NCBI GenBank assembly: GCA_021734045.1
Contig: JAIPJR010000099.1
Span: forward strand, 1-7,700
Reading direction: 5' to 3'
Length of the DNA stretch: 7,700 nt
From: Fidelibacterota bacterium
Lineage (GTDB): Bacteria > Fidelibacterota > UBA8477
A program made the translations under genes and the position numbers. Shown in pieces: positions 518 through 7,700 of the stretch. The number at the start of each line of letters is the position of its first letter. Within the stretch, counting starts at the first letter, position 1. The notes below the pieces were generated by a model, which was given only the letters and a program-made list of their open reading frames with translations, did not search any database and was not told where the DNA came from.

Positions 518-2718
518 GGTGTCTCCTCCACCACAATCTGCAGCAGCATACCATCAAGCCAAACCCCGGCGCCGGTCACCGACAGTAAATTGGCATCGTA
601 AACCGGGTAGGTACCGGTTTTATCCAGCATCAATGTCATCGTAATGGTTTCACCAGCCGGAACGGGGACCGAATCCTTCCAATTAGCAGTGATGGGCAGG
701 CCGTTACGCGCCACCACATTCACATGAAAGCCATGAAAATGGAGCGTGTGGGGCAAGAGACCCGGATTGGCCATCTGAATGCGAACCATTTCGCCCAATT
801 GTCCCTGAAACTGTGTTTCCGGTGCGGTGAAAATTTCCGGCGCACTCAGGCCATTAATGGTAAAAAATTGTGGATTATAGCTGGGGAATTCCGGCTCAAT
901 TCCTGCGTGCATACTGCTCAGCCAAACGGTGTCCCATTCAGTCAGCACCCAGTCGAATACGCGTGTGGTGTCATTAATGCTGGACTTGCGTACCAACATA
1001 CCCGCTAATCCCCGCGCCTGCTGGAACCGGCTGGTGTCGCCATAGAGATACACACCCGGCGGCGGGAGTGGATAGATCACCGAGACCGAATCCAGCGCTG
1101 GAATTTCCACCACAGGCATTTCGGTATTCATAAGCGTCCAGGTACGCGGCTCAACGGTGGTGTTATAAATGATGAGATTCAGAAATCCTGCCGTGGTAGT
1201 AAGTATGGAGGACTGGCGCCCGGTCGTATCCTCTGGCGTGAGGAAAATCTGCGCGGGGAATTCAGTGCCATTCACTGCTGTCAGGACCGTGTCTTCAATG
1301 GTCAGCACCAGGTGGGTTGTATCGGTTCCGCCAGCGTAATTGTGTACCGCCTGGGCCGCCCGGAAAAGATTCAGCCGGCCACCGGAAACCGTGATGTTTT
1401 CCAGCGCCGGAATCACATCCACATTCTCCAACAACATTTCTTTCAGCAACAGAGCGCCCGCCGCCGGAGAGGTCTCGTAAAAACTGGCAAATGCGGAGTT
1501 AGCGGCGGCGTGGAGCAGCGCGATGGCACCGGCCACATGGGGCGTCGCCATGGAAGTTCCCGATTTGTAGCTGGTGCTGCTGCTCAAATCGGTGGACAGG
1601 ATACTGGAGCCCGGCGCTCCCAAATCTATGGATTCGGCACCATAGGCTGCGGAACTGTTTTTTGTGTCCGTTCGCGTGGTATTGGTCACGCTCACCAGAT
1701 AGGGGCTGGAACAACCGGTAGGCACATCACCCTGGGTGTCCACATTGGCATTAATATTCATGGTAGCCACAGCAGATAGTATACCCACTTCTCCCATGGC
1801 CGTGTAAATGTCATTCCACAGCGGATAGGTACCCGATTCACAATCAGCGTAATTCACACCAAAACTGGAATTGGTAGCAACCACAAAGGCACCGCTGGCA
1901 CCATTCGTTTCCAGGAATTCGCTCTTCTGGTCCAAAACATATCCGTAAGCTTCCAGCGCTACCGAAGTCAGCGTCGTGGAACCCGCCACCAGCATGATTT
2001 TTACATCCCAGTTCACACCAGCCACCTGATTGTCATTGTCAGAAACAGCACCCACCGTGCCGGAAACATGGGTGCCATGACTACCCTGGGGTAGATTGCC
2101 GTCTGAGTTATAGGCGTTCCAGCCGTGCACATCGTCCACATAGCCGTTATTGTCATCATCAACACCGTTACCGGGAATTTCGTCTTCATTGGTCCAAATA
2201 TTTGCTTCCAAATCGGGATGATTCAGTTGAATGCCGTTATCCACCACCGCAACCACAATCTCCCGTCCCAAGGCCGTGGTTCCGCCGGTGGTAATGTCCC
2301 AGGCATTCACCGCATCAATGTCCGCCCCCACGGTTCCGCCGGACTGGCCGGTGTTCTGAAATGCCCACTGATTTCCGAATTCAGGATCGTCCGGGATACT
2401 GCGTTGCGCCACGAAATGATCGTATTGGGCATGAATGACGCCGGGTGAATTGCGGACCAGCGACAAGGCATTCTCCAGCGTCACAAAACTAGTATCCACC
2501 TTCAGCGACCAGATGTTCAGGCACCGCACCAGTAGCTTGTGAATGGAAATGCCCGAACCATTCAGCGTCAGTTGAATTTCACCGGCGCTCATGTCATCAT
2601 GAAACCGGGCAAGAATCGTTTTTTGATCGTATTGTAACGGATCCGGACCGCCGAAAACGGCTACCGTGAACAACAGCGTTGTGAAAAATGCTATTTTAAT
2701 CAGCAAAGGTTTTCTCAT
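514..2718 (-). CDS. Secreted subtilisin-like (S8) serine protease fused to two degenerate multicopper-oxidase-type cupredoxin domains
   Basis: 734 aa. Residues 1-23 are a signal peptide. Residues about 32-105 resemble an S8 propeptide, followed by the usual entry to the mature enzyme (DPEFGNQW, NTGQ). The catalytic residues are D160 in VAVVDNG, H214 in GSHGTHVSG, the oxyanion N283 in ATNSSFG, and S389 in GTSMATPHVAGA, so the protease should be active. GNGVDDDNNGYVDD at 183-196 is a likely metal-binding insert. Residues about 468-577 match the first multicopper-oxidase domain (LPPPGVYLYGDTSRFQQARG), but HWHG reads WTLM and the HDH position reads YGD. Residues about 585-731 match the last oxidase domain: INGLSAPE, then H657, H660 and H662 in HTLHFHGFH, equivalent to HPFHLHGH. 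The HCH motif with the type 1 cysteine is replaced by YDA (706-708). No type IX sorting tail is seen. It follows the oxidoreductase by 126 bp and overlaps the next gene by 4 bp. The ribosome site is weak (GGA near the ATG). Confidence 0.93.
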   Translation of the reverse strand: MRKPLLIKIAFFTTLLFTVAVFGGPDPLQYDQKTILARFHDDMSAGEIQLTLNGSGISIHKLLVRCLNIWSLKVDTSFVTLENALSLVRNSPGVIHAQYDHFVAQRSIPDDPEFGNQWAFQNTGQSGGTVGADIDAVNAWDITTGGTTALGREIVVAVVDNGIQLNHPDLEANIWTNEDEIPGNGVDDDNNGYVDDVHGWNAYNSDGNLPQGSHGTHVSGTVGAVSDNDNQVAGVNWDVKIMLVAGSTTLTSVALEAYGYVLDQKSEFLETNGASGAFVVATNSSFGVNYADCESGTYPLWNDIYTAMGEVGILSAVATMNINANVDTQGDVPTGCSSPYLVSVTNTTRTDTKNSSAAYGAESIDLGAPGSSILSTDLSSSTSYKSGTSMATPHVAGAIALLHAAANSAFASFYETSPAAGALLLKEMLLENVDVIPALENITVSGGRLNLFRAAQAVHNYAGGTDTTHLVLTIEDTVLTAVNGTEFPAQIFLTPEDTTGRQSSILTTTAGFLNLIIYNTTVEPRTWTLMNTEMPVVEIPALDSVSVIYPLPPPGVYLYGDTSRFQQARGLAGMLVRKSSINDTTRVFDWVLTEWDTVWLSSMHAGIEPEFPSYNPQFFTINGLSAPEIFTAPETQFQGQLGEMVRIQMANPGLLPHTLHFHGFHVNVVARNGLPITANWKDSVPVPAGETITMTLMLDKTGTYPVYDANLLSVTGAGVWLDGMLLQIVVEETP
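523..529 (-). promoter_or_regulatory. Strong Shine-Dalgarno site for the cupredoxin gene
   Basis: On the minus strand GGAGGAG lies 5 nt upstream of ATG 517, inside the last codons of the protease gene. It fixes the start of the downstream gene at the ATGA overlap and argues that this short-start frame is real. Confidence 0.8.
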
Positions 2719-2844
2719 GGTCCAATTCTAATTCCTGTCAGCCCTGCGGCGCGTGTGTCAGCGCAAGTTTTCATCAAGACAGAATTTTATGACAAAGCCT
2801 GTGGGAATGAAACCCAAAAGGGGCGAATCTCATCACATTTGTAT

Positions 2845-3846
2845 TTAATCAATGGTCAGAACGATTTTCCCTTTATTGGCATTGGCTTCCATGTGGTTAT
2901 GGGCTTCTACAGCCATCTGCCAGGAGTAAACCGAATCAATTACCGGTTTTAATTCACCGCTGTTGAAACGCGGCAGCGCGAATCCACCAAAGTCCCGGGT
3001 TAATCTCACCTTATAATCCAACGGTCTGGAACGTAGGGAGGAAGTTGTCAGCTGCCCCCGTTTTTTGAATAAATCGCGGATATTGAACTGTTCGATGAGT
3101 GCACCGCCCAGAGTCGCCAGAATCACGATGCGGCCATCTACCGCCAGGCTGGCCATATTTCTATCCCAATAATCTGCGCCAATGAAATCCACAATGACAT
3201 CCGCGCCTTTCCCTTGGGTGAAATTCCGGACAGCGGTTGCAAAATCATCCTCTTTGTAATTCACACCCAAATCCGCACCCAGCATTTCACAGAAGTTGAC
3301 CTTTTCATCCGAACCGGCGGTGACGATGATTTTCGCACCGATTGTACGGGCCAGTTGAATTGCAGCCGTTCCCACACCGCTGGCGCCGGCGTGGATTAAG
3401 GCTGTTTCACGCTTTTTCAGTTGACCGTACCAGACAATGGCCTGATAGGCGGTGAGAAAGGCTTCCGGAATAGAGGCGGCGTCCGTGAAGGAGAGATTGT
3501 CCGGAATGGGCAGTGCCATTTGCTCCGGGATGGTCACATATTCAGCGTAACCACCTCCCGGCACCAGCGCCATGACGCGTTCATCGTTCTCCCAAGCCAA
3601 TACCTGGTCTCCCTTGTCAACCACCACACCCGCCGCATCCAACCCCAGGATTTCAGAGGTGCTTGGCGGGGGTGGATAATTTCCCTGGCGCTGCAGAATA
3701 TCGGCCCGGTTCACTGAAGCGGCTTTCACCTTTACCAATAATTCATGGGGTTTTGGTTCGGGTCGTTGTACCTCACCGATCCGCAGCTGCTCCGGGCCGC
3801 CGGGATTGTCAACGATAATGGCACGCATGGTTTGATTGTTTTTCAT
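2845..3846 (-). CDS. NAD(P)H:quinone oxidoreductase, PIG3/zinc-independent MDR family
   Basis: 333 aa, normal length for the family. Members reduce quinones or alkenals with NADPH in the cytoplasm without zinc. Visible hallmarks are MRAI near the N-terminus, the quinone-reductase signature SVNRADILQRQGNYPPPP (44-61), GLDAAGVV (68-75), IPEAFLTAYQA (126-136), the Rossmann dinucleotide loop HAGASGVGTAAIQLA (152-166), TAGSDEK (176-182), and the PIG3-type stretch LRSRPLDYK (271-279). Two starts are possible: ATG 3846 (MKNNQT) or ATG 3828 (MRAI, the usual family start). Neither has a ribosome site. I keep 3846 because an extended -10 element lies just upstream and both copies of the repeated region preserve this frame. 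The first 19 codons belong to the 99-bp repeat found again at 7244-7342. The gene lies upstream of the protease on the same strand, but a functional link is not evident. Confidence 0.92.
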   Translation of the reverse strand: MKNNQTMRAIIVDNPGGPEQLRIGEVQRPEPKPHELLVKVKAASVNRADILQRQGNYPPPPSTSEILGLDAAGVVVDKGDQVLAWENDERVMALVPGGGYAEYVTIPEQMALPIPDNLSFTDAASIPEAFLTAYQAIVWYGQLKKRETALIHAGASGVGTAAIQLARTIGAKIIVTAGSDEKVNFCEMLGADLGVNYKEDDFATAVRNFTQGKGADVIVDFIGADYWDRNMASLAVDGRIVILATLGGALIEQFNIRDLFKKRGQLTTSSLRSRPLDYKVRLTRDFGGFALPRFNSGELKPVIDSVYSWQMAVEAHNHMEANANKGKIVLTID

Positions 3847-3888
3847 GATTTAAGATAACAATGACAGAAGACGCCGGGAGGGAAATGT
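3790..3888. repeat. 99-bp direct repeat, copy A (5' end and promoter region of the oxidoreductase gene)
   Basis: Matches 7244-7342 in the same orientation, offset 3454 bp. Four differences are visible, all transitions (3810, 3822, 3864, 3873), giving 95/99 identity. It covers codons 1-19 of the oxidoreductase and 42 bp upstream of its ATG. Leftwards, identity ends abruptly inside the gene; rightwards, it fades over about 30 bp of T-rich sequence. The two copies bracket 3355 bp of plus-strand genes. Confidence 0.95.
3852..3860 (-). promoter_or_regulatory. Candidate extended -10 promoter of the quinone oxidoreductase, predicting a leaderless mRNA
   Basis: Read on the minus strand this is TGTTATCTT, a TGn plus TATCTT extended -10. 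It is followed by AAATC and then ATG, which would put the transcription start at or next to the A of ATG 3846. That would explain the missing ribosome site. No good -35 hexamer is visible. The motif is unchanged in the second repeat copy (7306-7314). Confidence 0.35.
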
Positions 3889-3965
3889 CCGGGGAGATTT
3901 TGGCTTTAATTTTTTAGATAATAGTTTTAAGTTTATGCCAATCAAAACAGTTGAATATAGAAAAA

Positions 3966-3993
3966 TGGACACCGTTTCATTATTTTCTAAAAT
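3966..3993 (+). promoter_or_regulatory. Weak candidate promoter for the YiiX-like gene
   Basis: TGGACA (3966-3971) and TAAAAT (3988-3993) are separated by 16 bp, each one base from the sigma-70-type consensus. The predicted start would fall almost on the AGGAG ribosome site at 3999, which is tight. The region is AT-rich, so a chance match is possible. Confidence 0.22.
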
Positions 3994-4009
3994 TGATTAG
4001 GAGAATATT

Positions 4010-4636
4010 TTGGGTATTTCAAAGAATAAATTTCCTGGTAAGCCAGTAACTGATTATAACTCAATTCGTGATAAGCTACAAAATGGTGACGTCCTTATCT
4101 GCTCGGGCAGCGGTTTATTCTCAACTATGATTCAACAAGCAACAGGAAGCGTTTGGAGTCATGTAGGATTTATCCTTCGCCTGGATTCAATCAGTCGCGT
4201 AATGCTACTTGAGAGCGTTGAACCATTAGGAGTCAGAACAGTACGTTTGTCTAAATACCTTGAAAACTATTCTAATAATGGAAAACCCTATCCTGGTGGA
4301 TTGGCAGTAATACGAAATCGTAATTTCGCACAATTGATTAACCCGAGTAAGCTGACCGGTCTAGCAAAATATGCCATTGATCTTTTTGGGTATTCTTATG
4401 ACAAAGATGAAATTGCAAAAATAGCCGCACGAATATTGGCGTCTAAGGTTCTATTCACGAAAAAACAGATGAAAAAGATTGCTCCGGATCGTGAATTTAT
4501 CTGCTCTGAATACGTTGCGCGTTGTTATGAACACGTTGGTCTAAGAGTACAATGGAACGAATTAGGTTTTGTTGCTCCATCTGATTTCGCGGCGGACCCT
4601 AATTTTGATTTAGTAGCTGTACTCAAGAAAAAGTGA
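4010..4636 (+). CDS. YiiX/YaeF-type permuted papain-fold (NlpC/P60 superfamily) cysteine hydrolase
   Basis: 208 aa with no signal peptide or membrane segment, so probably cytoplasmic. The circularly permuted papain-like layout is visible: GDVLICSG (26-33), then the catalytic histidine H51 in VWSHVGFI, an acidic residue E68 in LLESVE, and the catalytic cysteine C165 late in the chain in EFICSEYVARCYE. Relatives hydrolyse amide or ester bonds in peptides or lipids; the substrate here cannot be read from sequence. The TTG start at 4010 is chosen because AGGAG (3999-4003) sits 6 nt upstream. Base composition is roughly 40% G+C by counting several lines, clearly lower than the genes on either side, which suggests separate acquisition. 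It lies within the segment bracketed by the 99-bp repeats, transcribed opposite to the oxidoreductase. Confidence 0.85.
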   Translation: MGISKNKFPGKPVTDYNSIRDKLQNGDVLICSGSGLFSTMIQQATGSVWSHVGFILRLDSISRVMLLESVEPLGVRTVRLSKYLENYSNNGKPYPGGLAVIRNRNFAQLINPSKLTGLAKYAIDLFGYSYDKDEIAKIAARILASKVLFTKKQMKKIAPDREFICSEYVARCYEHVGLRVQWNELGFVAPSDFAADPNFDLVAVLKKK

Positions 4637-4761
4637 AACCCAATAAAAGCCCTTCAATGGTGGTCATCTCCTTCCATCCTGAGTGTTTGAAAGAGGTTGA
4701 GGTGGTACTTGAAGCTCTTATAAAGAAATATCACCAGTTAACGCACGATCTGACTGGTTGA
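4633..4761 (+). CDS. Possible 42-aa small protein overlapping the YiiX-like stop codon
   Basis: A GTG start overlaps the upstream TGA as GTGA, an arrangement typical of translational coupling. The product would begin MKPNKSPSMVVISFHPE and continue with a helical, lysine/glutamate-rich stretch to a stop at 4761. Only a weak purine run (AAGAAAAA) precedes the start. I do not recognise the product. Its end overlaps, in another frame, the transposase remnant, so it may be an accidental ORF or itself part of decayed insertion-sequence DNA. Confidence 0.25.
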   Translation: MKPNKSPSMVVISFHPECLKEVEVVLEALIKKYHQLTHDLTG

Positions 4762-4841
4762 ACCGAGAGATTGAAAGGCGAGTAAAAGTAGTGAGGACAT
4801 TTCCCAATACCGATGCATTGACCAACTTACTGTCAAACTAA
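4743..4841 (+). pseudogene. Eroded C-terminal end of an IS256/Mutator-type transposase
   Basis: In the frame of TGG 4755 the sequence reads ARSDWLNREIERRVKVV, then RTFPNTDALTNLLSN and TAA at 4839-4841. This matches the conserved IS256-family C-terminal block, R-T-T-N-x-I-E-R-L-N-R-E-I-x-R-R-T-x-V-V followed by F-P-N and a leucine-rich end. Only about 32 residues remain; the DDE catalytic core is absent, and the same frame is closed by TGA at 4710-4712. It is a scar of a past insertion in the segment between the direct repeats. Confidence 0.7.
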
Positions 4842-4956
4842 TATGTAGAGTATCCATAGTATTCAAAACGCTTGGAAACCGGCTGATTTATCTCTACATA
4901 AACAGCTAACCAGATGATGTATAAGGTGACGCTTTTCCTGTTTTACGATAAAGATG

Positions 4957-4984
4957 TTGACAAGTCGTAAACTCACTTTATTTT
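4957..4984 (+). promoter_or_regulatory. Candidate promoter upstream of the 688-aa gene
   Basis: A perfect TTGACA (4957-4962) is followed after 16 bp by TATTTT (4979-4984), four of six matches to the -10 consensus. It would give a leader of about 170 nt containing both hairpins at 5042-5100. Confidence 0.3.
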
Positions 4985-5041
4985 CATACATGACTAAACA
5001 CATCTCAAATGCAAACAGCGAAAATCATCATTACTGATATT

Positions 5042-5059
5042 AAGGAGGGTTACCTCCTT
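5042..5059 (+). other. Perfect 7-bp hairpin pairing a Shine-Dalgarno with an anti-Shine-Dalgarno sequence
   Basis: AAGGAGG (5042-5048), loop GTTA, CCTCCTT (5053-5059). No run of T follows, so it is not a typical intrinsic terminator. It lies about 100 nt before the start of the 688-aa gene. Confidence 0.6.
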
Positions 5060-5076
5060 CTCTCGAGCTTGGACAC

Positions 5077-5100
5077 TAGAAGGCAAAAACGCCTATTCTA
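5077..5100 (+). other. Second hairpin in the leader of the 688-aa gene
   Basis: TAGAAGGC (5077-5084) pairs with GCCTATTCTA (5091-5100) around an AAAAAC loop, with an extra TA or bulge in the right arm. No T-run follows. Its role is unknown: RNA structure or a remnant of a mobile-element end. Confidence 0.4.
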
Positions 5101-5149
5101 CCTCAAGTTGAAAATTTAAATCTGGACAAAAATAAACCGTCAAACACAT

Positions 5150-5153
5150 GAGG
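5150..5153 (+). promoter_or_regulatory. Ribosome binding site fixing the start of the 688-aa gene
   Basis: GAGG lies 7 nt before ATG 5161. The alternative start at ATG 5203 (MPYHIPLL) has AAGG only 1 nt upstream, which is too close, so 5161 is preferred although the signal peptide then has a long N-terminal region. Confidence 0.55.
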
Positions 5154-5160
5154 CTCAACG

Positions 5161-7227
5161 ATGATAACCTTAAGTTTAATTTTTAGTCGGTTTTTCACAA
5201 GGATGCCGTATCACATCCCTCTTCTTACAGCCATCCTCTTGACAAGCTTGCCAGCTTATACACAGGAAGTCACTGCAAAAGGGGTGGTCACCATCGAAAA
5301 TTATCAACCTGACGAAGGCCCCCTCATACGGCAGCTTGAGCTCAGCTATCGCGTCAGCCATCTCATGGGTGAGCCACTGGAGGTCTACAACGTACGGTAC
5401 TGGTTTGGTGCGACCATCCGAATCGACGGAATCGACTACCCGCTTGAGAACTTCCCCCCGAAGGTTCAGAATCGTCTGAAGATTTCTGACTTGCAGATCA
5501 CGTTGAGAGCCCAGGGCCGGACGGCCGATAACCTTCCCATCGGCCCATGCTTCAATACCCGTGTCCCTCTTGGCACGATCCCCCAACCTGGGGGCAAATG
5601 GGGGTACAGTATGGGAGGTAGCCCAGACTGGGACGAGTTCTTCGAAAACTGCGGCGAGCGGCGGGCAAAGGCGCTGTTCCGGAGTGGATTTAGCTACGAT
5701 CAGCCGGAGATAACATCGATCTCCTTCCTTGGAATGAGGAGCGTCAGGTCTGACCTTCAACAACGGGAGCGGCGAGCGAATCGGATAGAAGAACTCCTCG
5801 CACGTGCGGATGCGGCATTGGATGCCGGTGATATTGAAGACGCAGCTCGTGCGATCAAGCGATTGAAGCAAATGGAGCCTGATGAGCCCCGGGTTGAGAG
5901 CCAAATCGCCACGATGGAGCGGGGCATCAAGCAGCTTCAGGCTCATGATGATAAGGCATCCAACGTTGTGCGTACTTCTGCCAGTGGGTTTTACGATTCC
6001 GATGATGACGCGGATGAGGATGAAGGTTCCGAGGATATGGATTCCGTGGCCTATTCTACACAGCAGCATGTGGTTCTGACGCCCGAAGAACAGGCAAAAA
6101 TACAGCAAGCCCAGATCGAACAGGATCTGGACTCATGGGTCGATTCCGATGCCCTGGCCCGGGAGTTATCCAAGGAGTCGCCCAGCATGCAGGCTGTCTA
6201 TCTGGGTATCTTGGGCGCGACCATGTATATGTCTGTACAGGCAGTCACTGACGACGATACCGAAGATAGTGATGTCCCAGAGCATGACCGCATCGATGAT
6301 TCCATCGACTGGGCAAGCCAATTATTAATGCCGGCTGGTCTTGGGTTAGGATCGATCTTTCTGTACATGGTAACAAGCAGCACCTTTAGCACGAATAATG
6401 AACTGAAGGCGCTGGCGCGGGATTTGGTAGTCTGGGAACGACAATTGCGAAATGAGTGTCGGTCTGGAGTGCTGGCAAGCTGTGACGAGGCGGTGTCACT
6501 ATCGAGGAAGTTCCGAGACCTATCGAAACCCGCTCTGGAGCGGGAATTATCATCTCCGTGGCGTGGCCTCGGCTCGGTCCTGGGTCCATCGTGGGAGGTA
6601 CGGGTCACCGCGGGTTTTTCAAAAGACGCTTTCGCCACCATCGTCCCCTACGAACGCGAGGACTCTGCTTACCCCCACACTTACGCTGACCAAGTGGAAT
6701 TTGAAGGACCCATGGACGCTGGCACGTGGGAGTTCGTAATGCGAGTCAAAAGTTTCCGGACCAGTTTCAGTTACACCAGACGTTATGGTAAGCTAATTGA
6801 TGATGAGCAATATGATCCTGATAGGATTCGACATACACCGCTCCAGATGATGACTAGTTACAGCGGTGGTCTTGGCATCCAGTTCGCACAGGGTCTTTTC
6901 TCTCCCTATGCAGAGCTGCGCGTACGATTGAATTCCATGGAGAATCAGGATATCGCCCGGGATAAGTGGAGCTCCAGTTGGGGGAATTGGCACACCAGAG
7001 AACCGCAGACGATTTCAGTCCCCGTGGAGAATGATCGCGCACTGGTCATAGGCAATACTTTCAACTTCAGTGGTGTACGCTCTACCCGTGGACCTAACGT
7101 CGCAGCATTCGTTGTTGACGTGGCATACGTTCTCCCACCGGAGGAATCTCCTTTTGACCCCGGATTTTCCATCAGCGTCGGGTACTCGATCTATCAGCCC
7201 TTCGGATTTGGGCGCTATGCACGCTGA
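5161..7227 (+). CDS. Exported protein of unknown function with TPR-like helices, acidic linker and probable C-terminal beta-barrel
   Basis: 688 aa; I do not recognise the family. A signal peptide is likely: R10 and R14, hydrophobic 19-30, cleavage near PAYTQ (31-35). Residues 36-195 look beta-rich with two cysteines (C130, C164). Residues about 200-260 form charged helices, including a TPR-like unit (ARADAALDAGDIEDAARAI, 214-232). Residues 280-294 are a very acidic low-complexity linker. Two hydrophobic segments, 343-361 and 387-406, flank an acidic loop (DDDTEDSD) and may form a membrane hairpin. A helical section (412-455) carries a second cysteine pair (C433, C441). From about 470 onward, amphipathic strands rich in aromatic residues and glycine (WEVRVTAGFS, WEFVMRVKS, SFSYTRRYG, GGLGIQF, YAELRVRL, FSISVGYSIYQPFGFG) suggest an outer-membrane barrel of about eight strands. 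G+C is above 50%, unlike the neighbouring YiiX-like gene. The stop lies 16 bp before repeat copy B. Confidence 0.85.
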   Translation: MITLSLIFSRFFTRMPYHIPLLTAILLTSLPAYTQEVTAKGVVTIENYQPDEGPLIRQLELSYRVSHLMGEPLEVYNVRYWFGATIRIDGIDYPLENFPPKVQNRLKISDLQITLRAQGRTADNLPIGPCFNTRVPLGTIPQPGGKWGYSMGGSPDWDEFFENCGERRAKALFRSGFSYDQPEITSISFLGMRSVRSDLQQRERRANRIEELLARADAALDAGDIEDAARAIKRLKQMEPDEPRVESQIATMERGIKQLQAHDDKASNVVRTSASGFYDSDDDADEDEGSEDMDSVAYSTQQHVVLTPEEQAKIQQAQIEQDLDSWVDSDALARELSKESPSMQAVYLGILGATMYMSVQAVTDDDTEDSDVPEHDRIDDSIDWASQLLMPAGLGLGSIFLYMVTSSTFSTNNELKALARDLVVWERQLRNECRSGVLASCDEAVSLSRKFRDLSKPALERELSSPWRGLGSVLGPSWEVRVTAGFSKDAFATIVPYEREDSAYPHTYADQVEFEGPMDAGTWEFVMRVKSFRTSFSYTRRYGKLIDDEQYDPDRIRHTPLQMMTSYSGGLGIQFAQGLFSPYAELRVRLNSMENQDIARDKWSSSWGNWHTREPQTISVPVENDRALVIGNTFNFSGVRSTRGPNVAAFVVDVAYVLPPEESPFDPGFSISVGYSIYQPFGFGRYAR

Positions 7228-7243
7228 GGGCGGTCACCTGTTT

Positions 7244-7300
7244 CTCCGGGCCGCCGGGATTGTTAACGATAATGGTACGCATGGTTTGATTGTTTTTCAT
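7244..7300 (-). pseudogene. Truncated 5' fragment of a second quinone oxidoreductase gene
   Basis: From ATG 7300 the minus strand reads MKNNQTMRTIIVNNPGGPE, identical to the intact oxidoreductase N-terminus apart from A9T and D13N. Homology then ends at 7244; the frame runs on through unrelated sequence, antisense to the 688-aa gene, to a TGA at 7172-7174 (42 codons). It cannot encode an enzyme. Its upstream element is intact, so it could still be transcribed. Confidence 0.85.
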
Positions 7301-7342
7301 GATTTAAGATAACAATGGCAGAAGACACCGGGAGGGAAATGT
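7244..7342. repeat. 99-bp direct repeat, copy B
   Basis: Second copy of 3790-3888, differing only by transitions at 7264, 7276, 7318 and 7327. It carries the first 19 codons of the oxidoreductase gene and the region upstream of its ATG, including the extended -10 element (7306-7314). To its left, homology stops exactly after the codon for E19, between the repeat and the end of the 688-aa gene. Confidence 0.95.
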
Positions 7343-7700
7343 GTTTAGGGGGAGTTTTTTTACTTCCTATTTTTTAACGTGCCGCTTAGCTTCAGACCTA
7401 TTGATGTATAAAAGAGCTTGGATGGAAGGGTGTAGAAGGGTACGGTGTGAAGTATTAATGATCCATGATAATCCATGAGTTCGAACAAATTATTGTACTA
7501 TGATCGAGTTGTGTCAAATTCACTATTAAACCATAGGCAATGTAGTAATATATATGGTTAGAATCACTACTGTCCCGTTAAAAGTCCCATAAAAACAATT
7601 GGTTGCAGGATGACCCCTCTGAAAGTCGGGAGTTGGCTTGCATAAGTAGTTGATTTATTGGCACTTTCTCAAAAAGCGATACACTTAAAATCTGTAGAAT
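7343..7700. other. AT-rich noncoding right end
   Basis: No ORF with coding character, tRNA or rRNA is seen in these 358 bp. The first 30 bp or so still weakly resemble the T-rich sequence after repeat copy A. Short repeats occur: AAGGGT twice near 7427-7440, and ATCCATGA twice near 7460-7478. At 7571-7588, TGTCCCGTTAAAAGTCCC resembles an insertion-sequence terminus, but no transposase frame begins before the window ends. Confidence 0.5.

Follow-up and report, generated by a model that had tools for sequence, protein, structure and literature searches.

A foreign gene segment between direct repeats of an oxidoreductase 5′ end in a Fidelibacterota genome, a probable footprint of homologous recombination

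The window analyzed here, a 7,700-nucleotide stretch of Fidelibacterota DNA that is the entire contig C76, carries on its left side three minus-strand genes encoding a multicopper-oxidase-like protein, a subtilase and a PIG3-family quinone oxidoreductase, all with native codon usage. The oxidoreductase orthologue in G002, a genome of the same genus, is 74% identical and is syntenic with the subtilase and multicopper-oxidase-like genes. The C-terminal part of the subtilase (514-2718) matches a multicopper-oxidase (cupredoxin) domain and a second cupredoxin-like gene adjoins it, an arrangement kept in G002. Searches of the locus for RNA genes and a tRNA attachment site found none. The features from the oxidoreductase rightward are as follows.

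2845..3846, minus strand: intact PIG3-family NAD(P)H:quinone oxidoreductase, the target gene (TIGR02824, E = 1.7e-122; native codon usage)
3790..3888, minus strand: left repeat copy, the oxidoreductase coding start (57 bases) plus 42 bases upstream
3889..3975, minus strand: upstream DNA of the intact gene, homologous to G002 by alignment score; proposed to be donor-supplied in the best model
4010..4636, plus strand: C92 (YaeF/YiiX-type permuted papain-like) peptidase, 208 aa (PF05708, E = 2e-6; PDB 3kw0, E = 2.5e-28)
4750..4842, plus strand: C-terminal remnant of a transposase of the IS256/Mutator family (positions 340-365 of the PF00872 profile, E = 1.3e-4)
5161..7227, plus strand: 688-aa ORFan, an open frame with an apparent N-terminal signal sequence and foreign codon usage at native GC
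7244..7342, minus strand: right repeat copy, an oxidoreductase 5′-end stub with a 42-aa open frame
7343..7410, minus strand: upstream DNA on the stub side, with weak homology to G002 by alignment score; proposed to be native upstream DNA
7565..7700, plus strand: end of a multi-copy IS (CACTACTGTCCCGTTA...) at the contig break, with other copies on contigs C23, C42 and C90

The 136 bases of the IS in the window are identical on C23 and 82-83% identical on C42 and C90. All of these copies are at contig ends, and the window stops within an unassembled IS. The copy on C23 appears to break a NUDIX-like reading frame.

Analysis of the direct repeats bore out the structural description in the initial annotation. 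The copies at 3790-3888 and 7244-7342 are identical at 95 of 99 positions, and the four differences, each of which was mapped, are all transitions as claimed (3810/7264, C-T; 3822/7276, C-T; 3864/7318, A-G; 3873/7327, G-A). In each copy, 42 upstream bases precede the initial 57 bases of oxidoreductase coding sequence. The left copy forms the start of the intact 333-aa gene, whereas the start codon of the right copy opens only the 42-aa stub, which extends on the opposite strand into the 3′-terminal part of the 688-aa gene. Identity between the copies ends abruptly at 3888/7342, inside noncoding DNA. Within the genome (2.54 Mb in 119 contigs) the second copy is found with a blastn E value of 1.7e-40, so the repeat is not due to chance, and because the genome holds just these two copies we rejected a dispersed promoter cassette, an explanation that the annotation had itself set against its proposal.

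The 3355 bp between the copies have the mixed base composition that had been described for this segment. The gene for the C92 peptidase is foreign by composition (codon z −5.6, GC z −5.1) and had no match among 59 related genomes; searches of plasmids, phages and viral contigs returned a single match, at 30%, in one archaeal phage. The 688-aa ORFan has a codon z of −3.0, belongs to no Pfam or NCBIfam family, and a search of the other 244 genomes of the phylum returned no match. The GC content of the peptidase gene is 39% compared to 53% in the ORFan, suggesting that the two genes probably have separate histories. Between them lies the transposase scar noted earlier, which codes for ~26 aa from the C-terminus of an IS256/Mutator-family enzyme. 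The reported absence of an integrase was confirmed, in that Pfam, NCBIfam and transposase profile searches identified no recombinase encoded in the insert. Terminal inverted repeats were found neither at the ends of this insert nor at those of the insert on contig C104 described below, and comparison of the insert with plasmids gave no match and with viral contigs no relatives. An integron cassette, prophage or plasmid origin was rejected given the lack of a recombinase, of a plasmid match and of viral relatives, with only the weak phage match to the peptidase. A duplication of 99 bp is too long to be the target duplication of an IS or transposon, and insertion of such an element was rejected on this length and on the lack of inverted repeats at the insert ends.

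Comparison with related genomes bore on the origin of the DNA flanking each copy. G002 has one repeat copy and no insert at the oxidoreductase locus, and is collinear with the window at 67.7% nucleotide identity over 3860 bp, a divergence (about 67% identity) too great to fix breakpoints and one at which weak homologies are to be read cautiously. The DNA at 3889-~3975, just inside the left copy, aligned to the G002 upstream DNA with a score of 28.5, compared to 12.5 ± 2.5 in 1500 GC-matched segments of the same genome, none of which scored as well, and it was the best match to the G002 upstream DNA in the ~350 kb of the genome scanned. The DNA at 7343-7410, outside the right copy, reached a local score of 20.0 against the same upstream DNA, compared to 10.0 ± 1.9 in controls (0 of 1500 as good); when the alignment was anchored at the collinear position 6 of 1500 controls did as well, and 19 of 300 dinucleotide shuffles reached the same score, indicating a weak match. 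Because both flanks resemble G002, the left strongly and the right weakly, yet show no likeness to each other, the two copies probably both carry oxidoreductase upstream DNA, but of two different ancestries. From these alignments we infer which flank, and with it which copy, is native and which came from a donor. The expectation for an island, that native upstream DNA would be confined to the outer side of the right copy, was not seen, since the G002 upstream DNA fits better inside the left copy. Searches for the right-flank DNA elsewhere in G001, a sister species, and in G002 gave no significant match, and a search of the genome for the right-hand neighbors in G002 returned short dispersed repeats only.

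The initial annotation had looked to a relative with a single repeat copy as support for an insertion. Such an empty site was found in G001 at a second locus, on contig C104; a direct empty site for the window locus was not found in G001, where the search returned no oxidoreductase orthologue. The second locus emerged from a scan of the genome for direct repeats of 60-500 bp, covering about 1.46 Mb, which returned few comparable pairs. The clearest of these, with a 134-bp core 93% identical between copies, has the following features (coordinates in L070).

423-556: stub core
822-3698: subtilase cargo, 958 aa (codon z −4.1, GC 0.41)
4131-4264: core in the intact DUF1207 gene

When L070 1-556 was joined to 4265-4906, the product aligned to the G001 empty site (contig C151, L184 3003-4200) as a single 1202-bp HSP with 93.3% identity. 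The 5′ side of the stub is continuous with G001 (94%), whereas the 5′ side of the intact DUF1207 gene is of another type resembling G002, so the insert supplied the DUF1207 gene with a new 5′ end, and the previous one persists as a stub. The two copies have the same base at eight core positions where G001 differs, so the duplication postdates the split from G001 and is thus recent. The stub matches G001 at the edge facing the insert; elsewhere it has changes of its own, including a frameshift. In G001 three extra reading frames (L184 936-1877 and 1993-2984) lie between the DUF1207 gene and a thioesterase gene, which are adjacent in G000 and G002, making this interval a further variable insertion point of the locus. 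The window and C104 share the same topology, and the C104 comparison is the firmest result of this analysis. By analogy, the outcome observed at C104 may also hold at the window locus.

Other repeat pairs were less informative. On C61 (L069), a 127-bp repeat with 92% identity, at 4735-4861 and 6979-7105, covers the 3′ end of a 143-aa gene and flanks a gene for a GLUG/sorting-domain protein; this is a less clean case, involving a gene 3′ end, in which the stub looks like a decayed copy of greater length, its flanks diverged on both sides, and the G001 contig ends at this point. On C27 (L100), a Fic gene (11319-12461) upstream of groEL lies between 92-bp repeats (11154-11245 and 12620-12710), but a recent insertion was rejected here, as this Fic gene is also present in G002, 82% identical and at a nearby position, where the repeats around it are a different pair of 38 bp (L208 1474-3154). 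The pair in L103 was set aside as tandem starts of RNA-binding-type genes, and those in L117, L089, L151 and L093 as dispersed intergenic repeats. A search for a motif shared by the repeat cores of the window, C104, C61 and C27 found no similarity above shuffles.

We consider it moderately probable that foreign DNA entered the oxidoreductase locus by insertion anchored on homology, through either a single crossover of circularized donor DNA or homology-facilitated illegitimate recombination (HFIR), and with similarly modest confidence we regard the 99-bp repeat as shared homology rather than an integrase attachment site. The donor fragment would have comprised the 5′ portion of an oxidoreductase homologue with its upstream region, the C92 peptidase gene, the IS256 remnant and the 688-aa gene, and would have recombined with the resident gene in a RecA-type reaction within the ~99 bp common to donor and recipient. 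The far end of the donor could have been joined to a truncated homology arm, the resulting circle entering by one crossover, or could have been joined illegitimately to the resident gene in an HFIR-like manner. In the product, the body of the resident gene would read from donor upstream DNA (3889-3975), followed by the cargo, with the displaced resident 5′ end (7244-7342) and the old upstream DNA on the far side. One homologous crossover is favored because the shared stretch would have a donor flank on one side and a recipient flank on the other. The sharp identity edge at 3888/7342 in noncoding DNA requires an earlier breakpoint between donor and recipient. We infer the crossover mechanism, the order of events and the donor from this arrangement; searches found no donor genome for the insert, and inspection of the 7243/7244 joint gave no evident microhomology.

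Both routes have precedents. In an E. coli lacZ assay with linearized plasmids, 56 of 60 candidate recombinants had partial target duplications (109-950 bp in the 14 sequenced), which were attributed to one crossover of a molecule that had lost part of a homology arm and recircularized (PMC3240628). As at the window, foreign DNA there lies between direct duplications of part of the target and encodes no recombinase; in contrast, the window event was natural, its flanks are diverged and its upstream DNA has been swapped. HFIR, known from S. pneumoniae, A. baylyi and P. stutzeri, similarly combines one homologous anchor with one nonhomologous joint, capturing foreign genes and keeping a remnant, and has been invoked for V. 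cholerae T6SS immunity arrays that retain resident-gene remnants (PMC5361080). However, HFIR usually deletes resident DNA rather than duplicating it (PMC3240628), whereas the window locus has a duplicated anchor.

The mechanism originally proposed, a site-specific integrative island at the oxidoreductase 5′ end whose integrase was lost or acted in trans and whose copies are attL and attR, now seems rather unlikely. The topology of the end product equals that of the dusA islands, which insert at a gene 5′ end between imperfect direct repeats, bring a new dusA 5′ end and leave the old one at the far side (PMC4482086). Nevertheless, those islands span 30-60 kb with direct repeats of 26-28 bp, compared to 3.4 kb and a 99-bp core here, and unlike them the window insert lacks a tyrosine recombinase (PMC4482086). 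The same genome also has a second target, at C104, with an unrelated core and different cargo; there is no conserved att core among the repeat loci, no terminal inverted repeats, and no mobile relative among plasmids, phages and viral contigs apart from the archaeal phage match to the peptidase. The proposal is thus upheld in part: at the window the cargo is foreign and a stub remains, and the insertion with replacement of the 5′ end, observed at C104, probably applies there too, but the integrase mechanism lacks support.

The best G002 match of all DNA scanned in the genome, at 3889-3975, raises the unlikely, though not negligible, alternative that the intact gene and this flank are an untouched native locus, the right copy being a displaced 99-bp fragment carried with neighboring DNA or copied during repair. 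Two coding differences that look derived in the stub are consistent with this reading, but the right flank also resembles the G002 upstream DNA collinearly (6 of 1500 controls), and C104 shows this likeness to G002 alongside a proven insertion. The other option raised originally, a tandem duplication in which most of one oxidoreductase copy was later replaced, would yield an intact copy and a stub, but we regard it as very unlikely: identity stops abruptly at 3888/7342, flanks about 96% alike would be expected and those observed are unlike, the model needs two more breakpoints exactly at the repeat edges, and the C104 flanks differ in ancestry. An assembly chimera of two strains is less probable still; although the genome is metagenome-assembled, the contig ends in an IS and strain variants could give two versions, the sequence has no ambiguous bases, no common stretch at the 7243/7244 joint on which an assembler might go astray, and a counterpart of similar topology at C104.

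In sum, the window holds a real, nontrivial footprint of foreign gene acquisition, probably by homologous recombination; on present evidence it is not a novel system. It is a doubtful conjecture that in this genus small foreign gene modules repeatedly enter at the ends of resident genes without an integrase, swapping promoter and 5′ end (the window, C104 and perhaps C61), possibly through an undescribed trans-acting recombinase or strong competence. Repeats of this kind can pass wrongly for integrase attachment sites. For this uncultured lineage, the findings point to uptake of foreign genes without a mobile element, in which the resident gene survives and its upstream DNA is exchanged, and C104, together with the empty site in the sister species, provides a natural example that can be dated.
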